The notes under the pieces are model-generated. The model worked only from the letters and a program-made list of their open reading frames with translations. It made no database searches and was not told the origin of the DNA. A stretch of DNA of 43,481 nt, from NCBI GenBank assembly GCA_009781765.1, contig WQVC01000011.1, positions 1-43,481 on the forward strand. Reading direction: 5' to 3'. How positions within the stretch are numbered: the first letter of the stretch is position 1; every line of letters begins with the position of its first letter. The stretch comes from Defluviitaleaceae bacterium. GTDB taxonomy: Bacteria; Bacillota; Clostridia; Lachnospirales; WQUN01. The translations under genes and the position numbers were made by a program. Of the stretch, positions 16,348 through 23,399 are shown piece after piece.

Positions 16348-16808
16348 TCCAAAAATCTCCCAATCACGCTTGCGGCAACCGCCACTGCGACAATAATTGC
16401 AAAAACGGACGCAAGAAGCACCGCACCCGCCGCCGCATCTTTTGCGATTTTGGCAAGCGGGTGCGATTTTCCGCCGCTAATCATGTCGATAATTGCTTCG
16501 ACGGCGGTATTAACAAGCTCCATTGCAAGCACAAAAAAAACGGCAAACCCAACAAGAATAAACAAAAGCGCGTCAAAAACACCTAAAATTTGAAAAATTA
16601 TACAAGCTAGTATAGCCAAAATTCCCAGTATTATTTGAACGCGAAAGTTTCGTTCGCGCCGGGCAATTACTTGAATTCCGTCGAACGCATCACGAAAAGA
16701 CGCAAAAAAACTGCGGCGTCTTTTTTTTATGGTAGCCGCACCCGGCGTCGAGGGAACGCGCCGCAAGCTGCACGTGTCCCCGGCATCCGGTGCGCGCTTT
16801 TTTATCAT
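16344..16808 (-). CDS. dgkA: Undecaprenol/diacylglycerol kinase, DgkA family
   Basis: A 154-residue membrane enzyme of the prokaryotic DgkA family; in Gram-positives it phosphorylates undecaprenol to feed the lipid carrier pool. Visible: [19 protein letters not shown], three membrane segments, [17 protein letters not shown] with the conserved Glu and Asn, and [17 protein letters not shown]. Most homologues begin at KKRSFxxSF. Here about 27 extra residues come first ([20 protein letters not shown]...), and these are encoded by a dispersed repeat. The starts MIKKR and, after the repeat, TIKKRRR duplicate each other, as if the element had been inserted just after the first codons. The ATG overlaps the leuD stop (ATGA). 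Confidence 0.9.
16736..16800 (-). repeat. dispersed palindromic element inside the 5' end of dgkA
   Basis: The core 16742-16783 matches 40467-40508 at 36 of 42 bases (minus strand begins CCGGGGACACGTGCAGCTTG). Flanks on both sides read ATAAAAAAGCGC and ATAAAAAAAAGACGC, a probable target duplication. The two halves are imperfect inverted repeats of each other (GCGCACCGGATGCCGGGGAC against the complement of the right end). Confidence 0.7.
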
Positions 16809-17296
16809 GCCAACTTCCTTTTTGTGCGTTCAACAAGCCCGCCGACCGCCATAAGCTCTTGCATAAAAACGGGAAACGGCGCGGCTTGATACGTTTTTCC
16901 GGATTTAACATTTGTAATTGTTCCGGTTGTAAAGTCGATTTCAACTTCGTCGCCGGCGGAAATTGCTTGCGCGGCTTCGGGGCATTCCAAAATCGGCAAC
17001 CCTATATTGATAGCATTACGATAAAAAATCCGCGCGAAAGTTTCGGCAATTACGCAGGAAATCCCCGATGCTTTAATGGCAATCGGCGCGTGTTCGCGGG
17101 ACGAACCGCATCCGAAATTCTTATTCGCGACGATTATATCGCCTTGCTTGACGCGATTGGGAAAACTTTGGTCGATGTCCTCCATGCAATGCGCCGCAAG
17201 TGCCTCCGGCCGTGAATCGTTCAGATAACGCGCCGGAATTATTACGTCCGTGTCCACGTTATCGCCGTACTTAAAAACTGTTCCTTTTGCTTTCAT
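16805..17296 (-). CDS. leuD: 3-isopropylmalate dehydratase, small subunit
   Basis: A 163-residue LeuD of the short bacterial/archaeal type. Together with LeuC it isomerises 2- and 3-isopropylmalate in leucine synthesis. Visible: [38 protein letters not shown] (the swivelling-domain signature) and [14 protein letters not shown]. The ATG follows AAAGGAGAGATTCAA. In most genomes it directly follows leuC; here leuC ends at 22140, 4.8 kb upstream on the same strand, with GH5, GH10 and a small membrane protein gene between them. It is translationally coupled to dgkA downstream. Confidence 0.96.
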
Positions 17297-17333
17297 TTGA
17301 ATCTCTCCTTTTTTTGACTCGCCTTCGGCGATT

Positions 17334-17726
17334 TTACGGCAATACCCGTCCGACTTCCAAAAGCGGCAAACCCGCTTCCGTCGGGATATAAATTACATTG
17401 GGGTTGTCCGCCATCAAGCGCACCCAAAGATAACGGATGTACGTTTCAGTCAGCGCATCCTGCACGATGTGCATTGCTTCCGCAGCACCGTGCGCACGTG
17501 CAACTTCGGCGCGGGCGTTAAGAGTTTCGGCTTCAAGCCGCGCTTCCGCCTCAATTACGATGATTTGCTTGTTCCATTCGGCCTGTGCGCGTTCGGCGCG
17601 ACCTTCCATTTCGCGTTGCCAAACGCGGTACGTCGGAATCGCCCAAAGCACCCCACCCACAATTGCAAGCACGAGAATCGCAATCCCAATCCACGCAAAC
17701 GCTGTTTTTACACTGAATGAGTTCAT
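17334..17726 (-). CDS. Small membrane protein resembling an SPFH/band-7 tail
   Basis: A 130-residue protein: one N-terminal membrane helix ([23 protein letters not shown]), a charged Ala/Glu/Arg coiled coil at about 35-85 ([14 protein letters not shown] ... [20 protein letters not shown]), and a C-terminal part [22 protein letters not shown]. The coiled coil plus final segment resembles the end of prohibitin/HflC-type proteins, but the SPFH domain itself is missing. A strong GGGAGGTAATAAA precedes the ATG. It starts about 110 bases after the terminator of the GH10 gene and lies 37 bases before leuD, so it probably heads the leuD-dgkA-DUF3048 unit. Function unknown. Confidence 0.6.
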
Positions 17727-17761
17727 TTTATTACCTCCCGGTTAAATTTTTTTAATTTATT

Positions 17762-17928
17762 CCCGATTAAAACCTTGGGACTTCGCCCCAAACCCCACCC
17801 GCTTTTTGAAAAAAGCGGGGCAAAAACTCTCACAAAATCGCGCGAATGCGCGATTTTTTAATTTTTGTCGAACTTTTTTTAAAAAGTTCGTGGGGGTGCG
17901 GGGGCAAAGCCCCTGCGGTTTCAAGTCG
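17762..17928. terminator. composite terminator island after the GH10 gene
   Basis: Central stem TCGCGC-GAAT-GCGCGA at about 17838-17853 with T-rich flanks on both sides. It is flanked by two inward-facing copies of the hairpin unit: CCGCTTTTTgaAAAAAGCGG on the left (17801-17820) and GAACTTTTTTTAAAAAGTTC on the right (17870-17889), each joined to a CAAAAAC/GTTTTTG box and a GGGGCttyGCCCC-type small hairpin. It ends transcription of GH10. Confidence 0.75.
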
Positions 17929-20199
17929 TCAATCAACAAGCTCCAGTATCGACCAAAAAGCCGGCTTGGGAACAAATTCGTTGCCGTCGAGTGTGAAAAG
18001 CAGCGGCCAACCCATGCTCAACCAACTCCACTCGTCGGTCATCCCCCAAAATGATACGCGGTCGATGTAGTCCGAAAATTCCATGAACAGCGCGAATAAA
18101 TTGCGGTACATAGTTGCTTGGCGACGGAGTTCGGCATTTGTAAGCTGACGTCGTGCCGGACTGTGGAAGCCCGCGCTCCAGTCGGTAAGCTCGCCGAAAC
18201 GCACGTCAAGCTCAGTGATGTGAATACGTGCGCCGGTTGCAGCAAAGCGTTCGATTGTCGCGCGAACTTGGCGCAAATCTGTCCATTCGATGGTGTAATG
18301 TCCCTGCATTCCCAAAATCTCGATGAGCAAGCGACCATCGTAGAGGGGGTCGTTTCGCCAACGCGCGTTGACTTGCTCCGTCATTTGAGCGATTGCCTCA
18401 CGCTTGCCGGGATTGTACTCGCCGTAATCATTGTATTTGAGCAGCGCGTTCGGGTCGGCGAGCCGAGCAAAGCGAAATGCGTAGTAGATGAAGTCCGAGC
18501 CGCATTGTCCGCTTCGCGCACCGTTTGCGAATGCGTTGTACCATTGCGAATAAAATTGCGGGTCGAGGCCGGCATTTGCACGGCGCACGAAATGTCGCCA
18601 GTCGGGGTTTCTGCGCCAATCGTCCGGGCTTATGCCCACGAAAACTTCGTTCACAACTTCCCATACATCAACGCGCCCGCGATAACGCCCGGCAACGGTG
18701 CTGATATGATGCTCCATGTTCGCGACGGCTTCGGCGCGGGTGAGGGGAGTCGTTGAGCCGGAAGCCGTTGTAAACCACAGATGCGACTGCGAATGCCAAA
18801 CAAGCACATGCCCCACCATGTACAAATTATTTTCATACGCCCAATTTATAATGAAATCCGATTCCGCCCAGTTCCAGTCGGCGGGATTGTTAAAATTGGC
18901 GCGATTTGCGAAATTGTTGGGCTTGTGATGATTTTCGGCGGTAATGGCGTTGTAATGATGCAAAAAATGTTCTGCCGCGCCGGGGTGTTGCAAAATTCTG
19001 TTTCGTCCGGTGTGTCCGCCCCAAATGTTGCCGACCATAAAATAATCGGCAAACGCCTCGGCGAGAGAGGGAATATCCGCGCCGGTGAGGTTCTCCGGGG
19101 GAGGGGGGACTTCGAAGGTTCGCGGCGTTCCGGTTGTTACGACGATGCTGTCAACAACAAAGGACATTGCTGCGGCCTCAGAATTTGTTTGTATGCGGAA
19201 AAAGCCGAAATCCGAAAAAGGTCTGCCGTTGTACTCATTTTGAGCGGTAAATGTGTAGGTGAGAGTAAATTCCGGATTTTGCGCGCTTACCGGCTCGCCG
19301 CCGAGCCACGGCCAACTGCCGTCGGCGGAAAGTTGAAGAAACATTTCCGCGTTTGCGGGAATCGGCGAAATTGCGCGTCCGGTTATTTCAATTGTGTACG
19401 ATGCATCCGGCGTGATGTTGAGGGCGTAAATGGGCATGTCGATTCCGTCCCAATTATTTTGACGGCCGGATACATTTATTCCGCCGGTTTCGGTTACGGT
19501 TAAAGTCGCGCCGCCGCTTCGCCGTAAATTTAAAGTGCCGGATGAAATGTTCGCGCCGGGGGAAAGTTCTGAAATATCCGGGTCGTGTGCCAGTGAGTAT
19601 ACATAGCCGCGAGGAATCTCGGGTGAAGGTTCTTCTTGTGACTCCGTCTCGATTTCCGGCACTTCTTCGGAAAGAGGCGGTGTGTGGTAATGCTGTTGCA
19701 CCGGCGGCTCTTCGGCCGGTGCGGTAAACGTGGTTATAATGACGGTTTGACCGTCCCAAGCCACTTCGTAGCCCATGCTTTCAAGCAACGCGCGAATGGG
19801 AAGCATTGTTCTGCCGCCGATGGTTTGCGCGGGAACTTCAAGCGGAACAGTATCCGCGCCGACGGGGTTTCCGTTGTAGCCGGCGACGTTCGTTTGAACT
19901 GTGTAAATTGCAAAATAATCGGCGTCCGGCGCAATTAAAATTGTCACGCCGTCGCGGAATAAAATTGCCGCACGTGCGTCATCGTCCCAATCCACGCGAA
20001 AGCCCAAACGCTCAAAAACTCCGCGCACGGGAACAAGCGTCCGCCCGTCAATTACCGCGGGGGCTTGGTCGGCGAAAATTACCGGTTCGCCGTTGATTGT
20101 AACGAAAATTTCGTCGATTTCGCCGGAATCGGGCGACGCCGCTCCGAGAGTGAAAATCAAAATAATCGCTGAAAATGCCGCCAAAATAAATTTTTTCAT
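17929..20199 (-). CDS. Secreted GH10 endo-1,4-beta-xylanase with copper-amine-oxidase-like and CBM domains
   Basis: A 756-residue protein. Signal peptide at 1-24 (MKKFILAAFSAIILIFTLGA); a copper-amine-oxidase N-terminal-like domain at about 30-155 (AVIDGRTLVPVRGVFERLGF, GGRTMLPIRALLESMGYEV), which in clostridia often replaces SLH domains as a cell-surface module; a Pro/Glu linker; a beta-sandwich at about 200-350 like CBM22/CBM4-9; and a GH10 barrel at about 370-756. GH10 motifs: GHVLVWHSQSHLWF, the acid/base Glu in VDVWEVVNEVF (about residue 517) and the nucleophile Glu in IHITELDVRF (about 662). It cuts the xylan backbone outside the cell. The start at 20199 has GGAG before it. It follows the GH5 stop by 17 bases. 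Confidence 0.93.
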   Translation of the reverse strand: MKKFILAAFSAIILIFTLGAASPDSGEIDEIFVTINGEPVIFADQAPAVIDGRTLVPVRGVFERLGFRVDWDDDARAAILFRDGVTILIAPDADYFAIYTVQTNVAGYNGNPVGADTVPLEVPAQTIGGRTMLPIRALLESMGYEVAWDGQTVIITTFTAPAEEPPVQQHYHTPPLSEEVPEIETESQEEPSPEIPRGYVYSLAHDPDISELSPGANISSGTLNLRRSGGATLTVTETGGINVSGRQNNWDGIDMPIYALNITPDASYTIEITGRAISPIPANAEMFLQLSADGSWPWLGGEPVSAQNPEFTLTYTFTAQNEYNGRPFSDFGFFRIQTNSEAAAMSFVVDSIVVTTGTPRTFEVPPPPENLTGADIPSLAEAFADYFMVGNIWGGHTGRNRILQHPGAAEHFLHHYNAITAENHHKPNNFANRANFNNPADWNWAESDFIINWAYENNLYMVGHVLVWHSQSHLWFTTASGSTTPLTRAEAVANMEHHISTVAGRYRGRVDVWEVVNEVFVGISPDDWRRNPDWRHFVRRANAGLDPQFYSQWYNAFANGARSGQCGSDFIYYAFRFARLADPNALLKYNDYGEYNPGKREAIAQMTEQVNARWRNDPLYDGRLLIEILGMQGHYTIEWTDLRQVRATIERFAATGARIHITELDVRFGELTDWSAGFHSPARRQLTNAELRRQATMYRNLFALFMEFSDYIDRVSFWGMTDEWSWLSMGWPLLFTLDGNEFVPKPAFWSILELVD

Positions 20200-20216
20200 A
20201 TTTTTCTCCATTCATT

Positions 20217-22139
20217 TCACGCTTGTTTCAGGAAAATGCGGGCTATTCGCGAGATGTCGCGTTCGTCACGCAGCGCGAATCCGAAATCGAAACCTTCCAA
20301 GCCTCGCATATCGAAAATTATTCGACCCGGTTCTGTTCGTATGCGTGGGTCGTTGCGCCGAAAAACTGTCCACGGCGACGGATGCCAGCGCGTAAATTCA
20401 AAATCGCCGCGCAAAGACCTGCCCGAAAATTCCACAACAACGAAGTCTGCGGCGTACAGTATGTGCGACGGAATCGCGAAATTTCCTTCGCCGTGTCCGA
20501 AACCTGCACCCTGAGTCCATGTTGTGGATACGGCATCGATGTGGGTTGCAATTACATAAGGAAATTCAATCGGCGGGCGCGGCAAAGACGGTCCGGGAGT
20601 TTTTCCGTAAGCGTCGAAGAGAAGTTCGACGAGCGGGTAATTCCACTCGCCGGCGTTTCGCCAAAGCAATTCATACGGCGCGAACCACGCCGACCGATTC
20701 CACCAAAAAACCGGTACGCCAAGCTCGGCAAGCGCGGGATAAAAATAGCCTGCCCAATCGAGAGCGTCGTCTGCGTTCATGCTGTACGGGCTTGTTTCCT
20801 TGATAACCATGGCAATGCCGAGGTCAAGAGCCGCACGAATTTCCGCCAAATCGCGTAATTCGCGGGCGCGATTTTCTTCGTCGCGAGGATAAAGAAAGCC
20901 GCCGAGCATGATATACGGGTCGTTCGGGGGAGGGGTGAAGAATCGCGATTCCACTCGCCCCTGAAACGTAGCAAGCATGACAACGCGCCTATCGTTGTAG
21001 CCGCCGCTGTTGCGAATAACTTCAAGAACCGATTCGTTAAGTCGCCGCGATTTGTCAACAAGCTCGCGAATTTCCCGGGAAAATCTGTCGTCGCACCAAA
21101 ACCACCCGTCAAGACCGGGGCGGGGTTCATTCATCGGTTCAAAAATCAGACTCTCGGGGTAGTATTTAAACCGCTCGGAAATTTGCGTCCAAACAGAAAG
21201 CAACCAATCCTCGGCATCTTCAAAAGGGCCGTAATGCATGGGGTCATACAAGTCGCGTTCGTGATGCGTGTTGATAATGACATATAAGCCCTCGTACAAC
21301 GCCCAATCGACAACCTCTTGAACCCTGTCCATCCACTCGTCGTAAATAATTAAATCGTCGTTCATGCGCGATGACCAATTTATCGGAATGCGCACGGAAT
21401 CAAAGCCCTTTGCTGCGATGGCTTGCATGTGCCACTGTTCAATTTTCGCGTTACCCCATGTTGTTTCGAGTTCAGTGACGGGACATTGCGTAATTTCGCG
21501 CAAAAATCCGCTTGATTCCATGGTGTTGCCGATATTTATTCCGACGCCGAGCCGCTCCATCATATCCCAACCGGTAACCGGCTCGAACGGCGGGGCAGGG
21601 GATTCGTCGGCAAGCACGAGAGTTGCAAACGCGAAAATAAAAACGAGTGTCGCAACGATAAGCGTCAAACATCCGGATGATTTGCGTATGAATTTTGCGT
21701 GTTCGCCGGGTCTTGCACCGCGGAGCTGCCGCATCTCAACTTGTTCAACGTCGCCGTCATCATAATTCATAATCATGGGTCGGCGACCGGATAAGCGACC
21801 CTTGAAATATCCGCCTTGGTTTTTCCAATTGGCTTCGAGTGCGAAATTATCGAGAGCGTGTTGCGCATCAATAACATGTGCGTTATCGACCGTTGCGACA
21901 TCGCCGTCCAAAAATAACGCCTGCACGTGATTTTCAAAAGATTCTCCGATGGTCGCCGGATAATAATAGCCGTCATGCGACCATTTTGCGAAAACGACGT
22001 CGGGGGTTACAGGGGTTGCCGCCTCCGAAACTAATGCTTTTGTTACGCCGCAATATTCGCAAGTGATGAACTCCGCACCTTCTTGCGGATTAAGGTTTGC
22101 TCCGCACTTTTCGCATTGCAAAGCAATAACGCGCTTCAT
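20217..22139 (-). CDS. Membrane-tethered GH5 glucanase fused to a cytosolic zinc ribbon and Tudor-like domains
   Basis: A 640-residue protein with an unusual order of domains. Residues 1-31 hold a zinc ribbon (C9, C12, C27, C30). Residues 45-145 look like two small SH3/Tudor-like barrels (VVFAKWSHDGYYYPATI; YFKGRLSGRRPMIMNYDDGD). One membrane helix lies at about 157-177. Then comes a GH5 barrel: LGVGINIGNTMESS, GFDSVRIPINWS, IINTHHERD, the acid/base E338 in FEPMNEP and the likely nucleophile E448 in VIKETSP. A further beta-rich region of about 120 residues ends the protein. GH5 enzymes of this type cut cellulose or other beta-1,4-glucans. Topology should place the ribbon inside and the enzyme outside the cell. 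The ATG follows the leuC stop with no gap, and its ribosome site lies in leuC. Confidence 0.85.
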   Translation of the reverse strand: MKRVIALQCEKCGANLNPQEGAEFITCEYCGVTKALVSEAATPVTPDVVFAKWSHDGYYYPATIGESFENHVQALFLDGDVATVDNAHVIDAQHALDNFALEANWKNQGGYFKGRLSGRRPMIMNYDDGDVEQVEMRQLRGARPGEHAKFIRKSSGCLTLIVATLVFIFAFATLVLADESPAPPFEPVTGWDMMERLGVGINIGNTMESSGFLREITQCPVTELETTWGNAKIEQWHMQAIAAKGFDSVRIPINWSSRMNDDLIIYDEWMDRVQEVVDWALYEGLYVIINTHHERDLYDPMHYGPFEDAEDWLLSVWTQISERFKYYPESLIFEPMNEPRPGLDGWFWCDDRFSREIRELVDKSRRLNESVLEVIRNSGGYNDRRVVMLATFQGRVESRFFTPPPNDPYIMLGGFLYPRDEENRARELRDLAEIRAALDLGIAMVIKETSPYSMNADDALDWAGYFYPALAELGVPVFWWNRSAWFAPYELLWRNAGEWNYPLVELLFDAYGKTPGPSLPRPPIEFPYVIATHIDAVSTTWTQGAGFGHGEGNFAIPSHILYAADFVVVEFSGRSLRGDFEFTRWHPSPWTVFRRNDPRIRTEPGRIIFDMRGLEGFDFGFALRDERDISRIARIFLKQA

Positions 22140-23399
22140 CTAAATTTTCTCCGGACTTGTAATGTATCCCGTGAGCGCGCTTGCCGCCGCAACAGCCGGA
22201 CTTGACAAATAAACTTCGCTTTCGGGCGAACCCATGCGCCCCACGAAGTTGCGGTTTGTTGTGGCAAGTGCGCGTTCGCCTTTTGCCAAAATGCCCATAT
22301 GACCGCCGAGGCAAGGACCGCATGTTGCCGGCGAAACAACGCATCCCGCCGTGATGAAGTCTGTCATCAAGCCTTCTTCTATCATTTGAAGAGAAATTTT
22401 TTGTGTGCCGGGAAAAATTAAAACGCGCAAGCCTTTTGCGACCGTTTTTCCGCGCAAAATATCAGCCGCAACGCGCATATCTTCGATGCGCCCGTTTGTG
22501 CAACTGCCGATTACAACTTGGTCGAGCTTTACTTCGCCGACTTCGTCGATTGTGCGAGTGTTGTCGGGCAAATGCGGAAACGCGACCGTCGGGCGCAATG
22601 CCGCGAGGTCGATTGTGTAAACCGCTTCGTACTCGGCGTCCGGGTCGGCAGAATATTCTGTGCCGGGGCGCGATGCGTGTGCGGCAACATATTCGCGAGT
22701 TTTTTCGTCCACGGGGAAAATGCCGTTCTTTGCGCCGGCTTCGATTGCCATGTTTGCGATGCAAAAGCGGTCGTCCATGGAGAGATGCTTCAGCCCGTCG
22801 CCGGAGTATTCCATGGACTTGTACAACGCGCCGTCAACGCCGATTTTGCCGATTATATGCAGAATAATATCTTTGCCGGAAACCCATTTCGCAGGCTTAC
22901 CGACAAGCTCGAATTTCAGCGCGGGCGGCACTTTGAACCATGTTTCGCCGACGGCCATTGCACATGCCATGTCGGTGCTTCCGACGCCCGTCGAAAACGC
23001 GCCCAACGCGCCGTACGTACACGTGTGCGAATCCGCTCCGATAATCGCGTCGCCGGGTACGGCCAAACCTTTTTCGGGAATCAGGCAGTGTTCGATGCCC
23101 ATTTCGCCGACCTCGAAATAATTTTCAATTTCGTATTTATGTGCAAATTCGCGAATTTGCTTGCAATGCTCCGCCGATAAAATATCCTTGTTCGGAGTAA
23201 AGTGGTCGGGGACGATGGCGATTTTTTTCTTATCAAACACCTTGTCCGCTCCGATTTTTGCAAATTCCTTGACGGCAACCGGCGTTGTAACGTCGTTGCC
23301 CAAAACCAAGTCCAACTTCGCTTCGATTAACTGCCCGGCGGTAACGCTTTCAAGCCCCGCGTGCGCCGCAAGAATTTTTTGTGTCATAGTCATGCCCAT
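22140..23399 (-). CDS. leuC: 3-isopropylmalate dehydratase, large subunit
   Basis: A 419-residue LeuC of the HacA/LeuC2 type (shorter than the 465-residue enterobacterial form), the catalytic subunit carrying a [4Fe-4S] cluster. Visible: [40 protein letters not shown] with the first cluster Cys, and [12 protein letters not shown] with the other two. The start at 23399 has AGGAGAGATTTAA before it. The stop TAG is followed at once by the ATG of the GH5 gene. It lies 118 bases after the ABM-like gene, beyond a terminator-like hairpin; no strong promoter of its own is visible. Confidence 0.96.

Follow-up and report, generated by a model that had tools for sequence, protein, structure and literature searches.

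A single open reading frame in the window, by which we mean the whole 43,481-nucleotide stretch of clostridial DNA analysed here, encodes a zinc ribbon, two Tudor barrels, a membrane helix, a GH5 glycoside hydrolase domain and a C-terminal domain. We think it probable that two accessory genes of the leuC-leuD cassette became joined in frame, in this lineage alone, to give this gene, and that the helix exports and anchors the GH5 enzyme. Each part is of a known kind; the fused order is new among the genomes searched. The features are these.

20217..22139 (-): fusion gene, 640 aa, zinc ribbon, tandem Tudor, membrane helix, GH5 and C-terminal domain in that order (continuous frame; Pfam)
22032..22121 (-): zinc ribbon, residues 7-36, with C9, C12, C27 and C30 (Pfam zinc-ribbon matches below the cut-off)
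21867..22004 (-): Tudor barrel 1, residues 46-91, cage positions W53, Y60, F76 and D78 (Tudor_3; model; fold match; conservation)
21714..21842 (-): Tudor barrel 2, residues 100-142, with W105, Y111/F112, Y126 and D128 (model; match to the 53BP1 tandem over 46-147)
21609..21674 (-): membrane helix, residues 156-177, with a possible signal peptidase site after A177 (hydropathy; flanking charges; helix in the model)
21588..21608 (-): linker, residues 178-184, region of the fusion joint (homology to the congener G003 stops before it, homology to GH5 relatives starts after it)
20610..21587 (-): GH5 catalytic domain, residues 185-510, with E338 and E448 (PF00150; solved GH5 relatives; residue alignment)
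20220..20609 (-): C-terminal domain, residues 511-640, predicted to be beta-rich (model)
22140..23399 (-): leuC, directly upstream of the fusion gene (syntenic in congeners)
17929..20211 (-): GH10, bearing signal peptide and Cu_amine_oxidN1 domain, which starts 5 nt beyond the stop of the fusion gene (Pfam; homologue at the same locus in the congener G009)
17334..17726 (-): 130-aa membrane/coiled-coil protein, p130 (same locus in G002 and G005)
16805..17296 (-): leuD, the other border of the cassette (synteny)

The frame has 640 codons and no internal stop. Its ATG abuts the leuC stop without overlap (GGAG...TAGATG) and the GGAG, about 9 bases upstream, falls within leuC, which makes translational coupling to leuC probable. 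Pfam finds Cellulase, PF00150, in the whole protein at E=7.2e-36 (residues 221-481, 124.5 bits against a cut-off of 23.5) and Tudor_3 in residues 1-180 at E=2.2e-8 (46-89), while PADLOC and NCBIfam searches gave nothing meaningful for the N-terminal part. An earlier note, made from the letters alone, had described two CxxC pairs, two barrel-like segments, one hydrophobic helix and a GH5 core with both catalytic Glu. All of these are present, and one frame carries every part it named.

Evidence for a fusion comes from the same locus in other species of the genus. Among 96 genomes searched, 95 of them relatives, one contained a close homologue of the N-terminal part: G003, a Defluviitaleaceae MAG (Emb289P1bin48, contig WQVV01000001) whose isolate code Emb289 reportedly appears in a study of MAGs recovered from the guts of higher termites (PMC7024585). 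The two are 56% identical over residues 6-178. The G003 protein has the zinc ribbon, the Tudor pair, the membrane helix and the position after leuC in common with ours, but it is a complete 178-aa gene that ends, without an enzyme, in IILIMAAA right behind the helix (L065:3082-3615), and it sits alone in the leuC-leuD gap. In G002 the gap instead holds a GH5 orthologue, 69% identical over the GH5 and C-terminal parts (L058:2550-4553), which has no Tudor domains; a signal peptide and a Cu_amine_oxidN1 domain stand where ours has the zinc ribbon, Tudor pair and helix. In G009 the gap is occupied by a GH10 whose N-terminal module is of that kind too. Both halves are therefore at home at this locus and exist apart in other species.

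The gap is an accessory-gene site in this genus (window 17297-22139, L058-L065). It holds nucleotidyltransferase/HEPN-type pairs, toxin-antitoxin-like and named by eye, in G001, G004 and G006; GNAT genes in G004, G006 and G007; a HicB-like gene, also named by eye, in G001; GH5 and p130 in G002; the Tudor-helix gene in G003; p130 plus another gene in G005; and DUF6036 with GH10 in G009. In other genera of the family leuC and leuD mostly lie next to each other, though G013 and G023 have larger gaps. The p130 protein of the window (17334-17726, minus strand) has one N-terminal membrane helix and a coiled coil like the tail of SPFH/HflC proteins, and it matches phrog_11227, 'protease', at 1.3e-34.

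The earlier note held that finding the first 150 residues as a separate gene would argue against a real fusion. Such a gene exists in G003. In our view the fusion still stands, as a recent event limited to one lineage. It has been seen in one MAG of one species, and the N-terminal part is missing from most congeners. A second fused case was found in none of the roughly 800 genomes searched, and a literature search on cytosolic Tudor domains of bacteria and on glycosidases with zinc ribbons found no paper on either, nor one on the combination, which fits the claim that no enzyme with this order has been described.

The helix is the only segment of the protein with a Kyte-Doolittle value above 1.6, averaging 2.75 over residues 158-176. 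Its N-terminal flank has a net charge of +3 and its C-terminal flank one of -4, and for this reason an N-in/C-out topology is well supported: the zinc ribbon and Tudor pair would be cytosolic and the GH5 domain outside. This agrees with the earlier note, which placed the N-terminal part in the cytosol and the enzyme at the outer face. Homology to G003 is clear up to about residues 154-157 and homology to the GH5 relatives begins at about 185. DNA alignment of the helix and linker between them (158-184) assigns this stretch to neither parent, tail anchor nor signal peptide. The residues ATLVLA-DESPAPP look like the signal-peptide ends and short linkers of the relatives, which makes it plausible that the join fell within the hydrophobic stretches of a tail anchor and a signal peptide.

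It could be objected that the join is an error of assembly or sequencing that brought two separate neighbouring genes together. The MAG is in 154 contigs, the parents were probably neighbours and a small lost stretch would be enough. We nevertheless consider this highly improbable. The frame across residues 150-180, where a frameshift or assembly join would have told against the fusion, is perfect, and the join itself is spanned by a helix and a linker. The junction region shares no exact repeat above 12 nt with other parts of the window, and the best non-self match in the genome is 29 bp at 86%, so there is no near copy to mislead an assembler. Substitutions at the three codon positions run 0.31/0.25/0.60 for the N-terminal part against G003 and 0.24/0.15/0.46 for the GH5 part against G002. 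This third-position bias makes both halves look like maintained coding sequence. Since both halves are also syntenic, we see no sign of an artefact as far as this can be tested.

Another objection accepts the fusion and denies that it holds the enzyme. If signal peptidase I cut after A177 (VLA/DESP), the GH5 domain would be released, the zinc ribbon and Tudor pair would stay in the membrane, and roughly the two ancestral proteins would be regenerated. The site obeys the -3/-1 rule of signal peptidase, with V at -3 and A at -1, is followed by a short acidic, Pro-rich linker, and resembles the signal-peptide ends of the G009 GH10 and the G002 GH5. However, the hydrophobic core is about 21 residues long, above the usual length for a cleaved signal peptide, and we think cleavage unlikely, though it deserves to be taken seriously.

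What does the N-terminal part do? An AlphaFold model of residues 1-184, built from a 12-member alignment (A3), has a mean pLDDT of 85.6 and shows barrels at 48-91 and 100-142 joined by a short helix, and the membrane helix at 156-176. Ahead of them the CxxC pairs C9/C12 and C27/C30, with strands at 24-26 and 33-35 in a small beta fold, form a predicted zinc site, and all four Cys are kept in G003 and in another relative, G148. The top Foldseek matches of the model are tandem Tudor structures of 53BP1. In VIA-align 53BP1 reaches a Z of 11.6 (99 residues, rmsd 2.6), and Crb2 follows with 9.1; the next entries, at Z 7-8, are single Tudor and PWWP domains. The predicted structure is thus that of two packed barrels in a 53BP1/Crb2-like tandem. 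In sequence, the A3 profile matches the Tudor domains of KDM4B, PHF20L1 and PHF20 at roughly 1e-6 to 1e-4. The W, Y, F and D columns coincide in the alignments of PHF20L1 and PHF20 type.

These columns may bear on the ligand. The methyl-lysine cage of 53BP1, which we take to be W1495, Y1502, F1519, D1521 and Y1523, maps by its first four positions to W53, Y60, F76 and D78. Among the 12 family members W53 is present in nine and D78 in ten, while Y60 and F76 are invariant; the fifth position, D80 in ours, is variable. Barrel 2 has the same pattern. The pair resembles the eukaryotic methyl-lysine readers 53BP1 and Crb2 in its two-barrel arrangement and in four of five cage positions by mapping. 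It differs from them in being bacterial, about 20% identical, and joined to a zinc ribbon and a membrane helix. A role in binding a methylated ligand is possible.

The family itself is small. Its profile finds 12 of 392 genomes of the order (the window and G003 counted) and no match among 397 further genomes drawn from across the phylum; the two draws overlap and both are samples. Some relatives are the pair alone, one has a zinc ribbon and the pair without a helix (G148), three have another N-terminal module before the pair (G033, G116, G118), and the rest are longer proteins without a known domain. Scanning genome contigs with the whole fusion as query gave no match; a 3-row alignment retrieved the records of G003 and G148 and no others. 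No relative of the N-terminal part turned up among viral contigs or phage records.

According to Kaur et al. 2018 (PMC5906684), the chromo-like domains of bacteria are consistently secreted, and Firmicutes are a group in which they are under-represented. They too are SH3-fold, Tudor-like barrels with an aromatic cage. The clostridial proteins differ in their predicted location: no signal peptide is seen by eye in the relatives of G003, G148, G126 and G155, and in the window protein the Tudor part precedes the sole membrane helix, with positive-inside charges, and does not share the secreted location of the chromo-like proteins. The clostridial tandem-Tudor family is thus apparently cytosolic and departs from the published description.

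Two further observations concern single members or subsets. The module KIGETxxRRARQLVxxQRAxW, without a Pfam match, precedes the pair at L009:1294-1806, L081:1378-1878 and L082:1369-1887. At L079:1456-1857 a lone Tudor-pair gene follows a DnaK/Hsp70-looking gene, a single instance of a possible functional link.

The earlier note proposed that the cytosolic part has a protein, RNA or the secretion machinery as its binding partner and possibly senses or organises the use of polysaccharide through the tethered enzyme. The topology is compatible with this and the cage residues are conserved. A zinc ribbon, membrane helix and outside domain without a Pfam match also occur together in the congener G004 (L022:949-1647, minus strand), so the topology has a precedent in the genus; TcaA/YvbJ are zinc ribbon, membrane helix and extracellular proteins as well. 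But the N-terminal part stands alone in G003 and is found without an enzyme as the enzyme is found without it, the fusion occurs in one species only, and no regulator or conserved partner gene accompanies it. The note suggested looking for the same N-terminal part on other extracellular enzymes; among the relatives examined none carries a recognised enzyme, and their gene neighbourhoods have no evident shared context. We regard the sensing model as improbable and see little beyond the topology that speaks for it. A more specific version, in which the pair would be a cytosolic reader of a modified (methyl-lysine/arginine-like) bacterial protein tethered to an extracellular glucanase, whose placement would then depend on a mark inside the cell, with an undescribed clostridial tandem-Tudor family behind it, we regard as quite improbable.

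By sequence the enzyme belongs to GH5. E338 (NEP) and E448 (KET) line up with the catalytic Glu of GH5 relatives, and the window protein has the GH5 core and both Glu in common with endoglucanases such as 6q1i and 4w84. It differs from them in its membrane-anchored N-terminus, its extra C-terminal domain and the Phe that replaces the active-site His of the HxY motif. The same Phe is found in the five nearest GH5 relatives, which also keep both Glu, and is a trait of this clade (window 20610-21587; L068, L069, L070, L071, L072). With this His replaced, hydrolytic activity is not certain, although the family assignment is unaffected. The C-terminal domain (511-640) matched no Pfam family, and its model (pLDDT 74.7) had no Foldseek match at E<=0.001, only weak matches to jelly-rolls that include carbohydrate-binding modules. 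Relatives of the GH5 at E<=1e-40 occur in 4 of 295 genomes of the order, and in G002, G009 and G014 the N-termini of the relatives and paralogues resemble signal peptides or lipoprotein signals.

The fusion of two accessory genes, which we favour, would have proceeded as follows. The ancestor would have had a small membrane protein with a cytosolic zinc ribbon, tandem Tudor and C-terminal helix, the form kept by G003, and a secreted GH5 with its own signal peptide, the form kept by G002. A local deletion or recombination would then have removed the stop codon of the first gene and the start region of the second, with the breakpoint probably within the hydrophobic tail-anchor/signal-peptide stretch. 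The tail anchor, or its hybrid with the signal peptide, would now act as a signal anchor and export the GH5, giving a type II membrane protein whose zinc ribbon and Tudor pair remain in the cytosol while the GH5 acts outside on a beta-glucan-type polysaccharide, beside the co-encoded GH10. The Tudor part probably retains its own, unrelated binding activity, and what the enzyme gained would be export and anchoring rather than sensing. None of the congeners examined has both parent genes intact side by side, so we infer the order of events, as we do topology, export and enzymatic activity.

It is unusual to see a domain fusion while congeners still have each of the parents, unfused, at that locus. 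Here the tail anchor of an intracellular membrane protein seems to have taken over from the secretion signal of an enzyme. Behind it lies a small, sparse clostridial family of apparently cytosolic tandem Tudor proteins with conserved cage residues, which would make the existence of methyl-readers in the bacterial cytoplasm directly testable. In our view this family is a more durable lead than the fusion.
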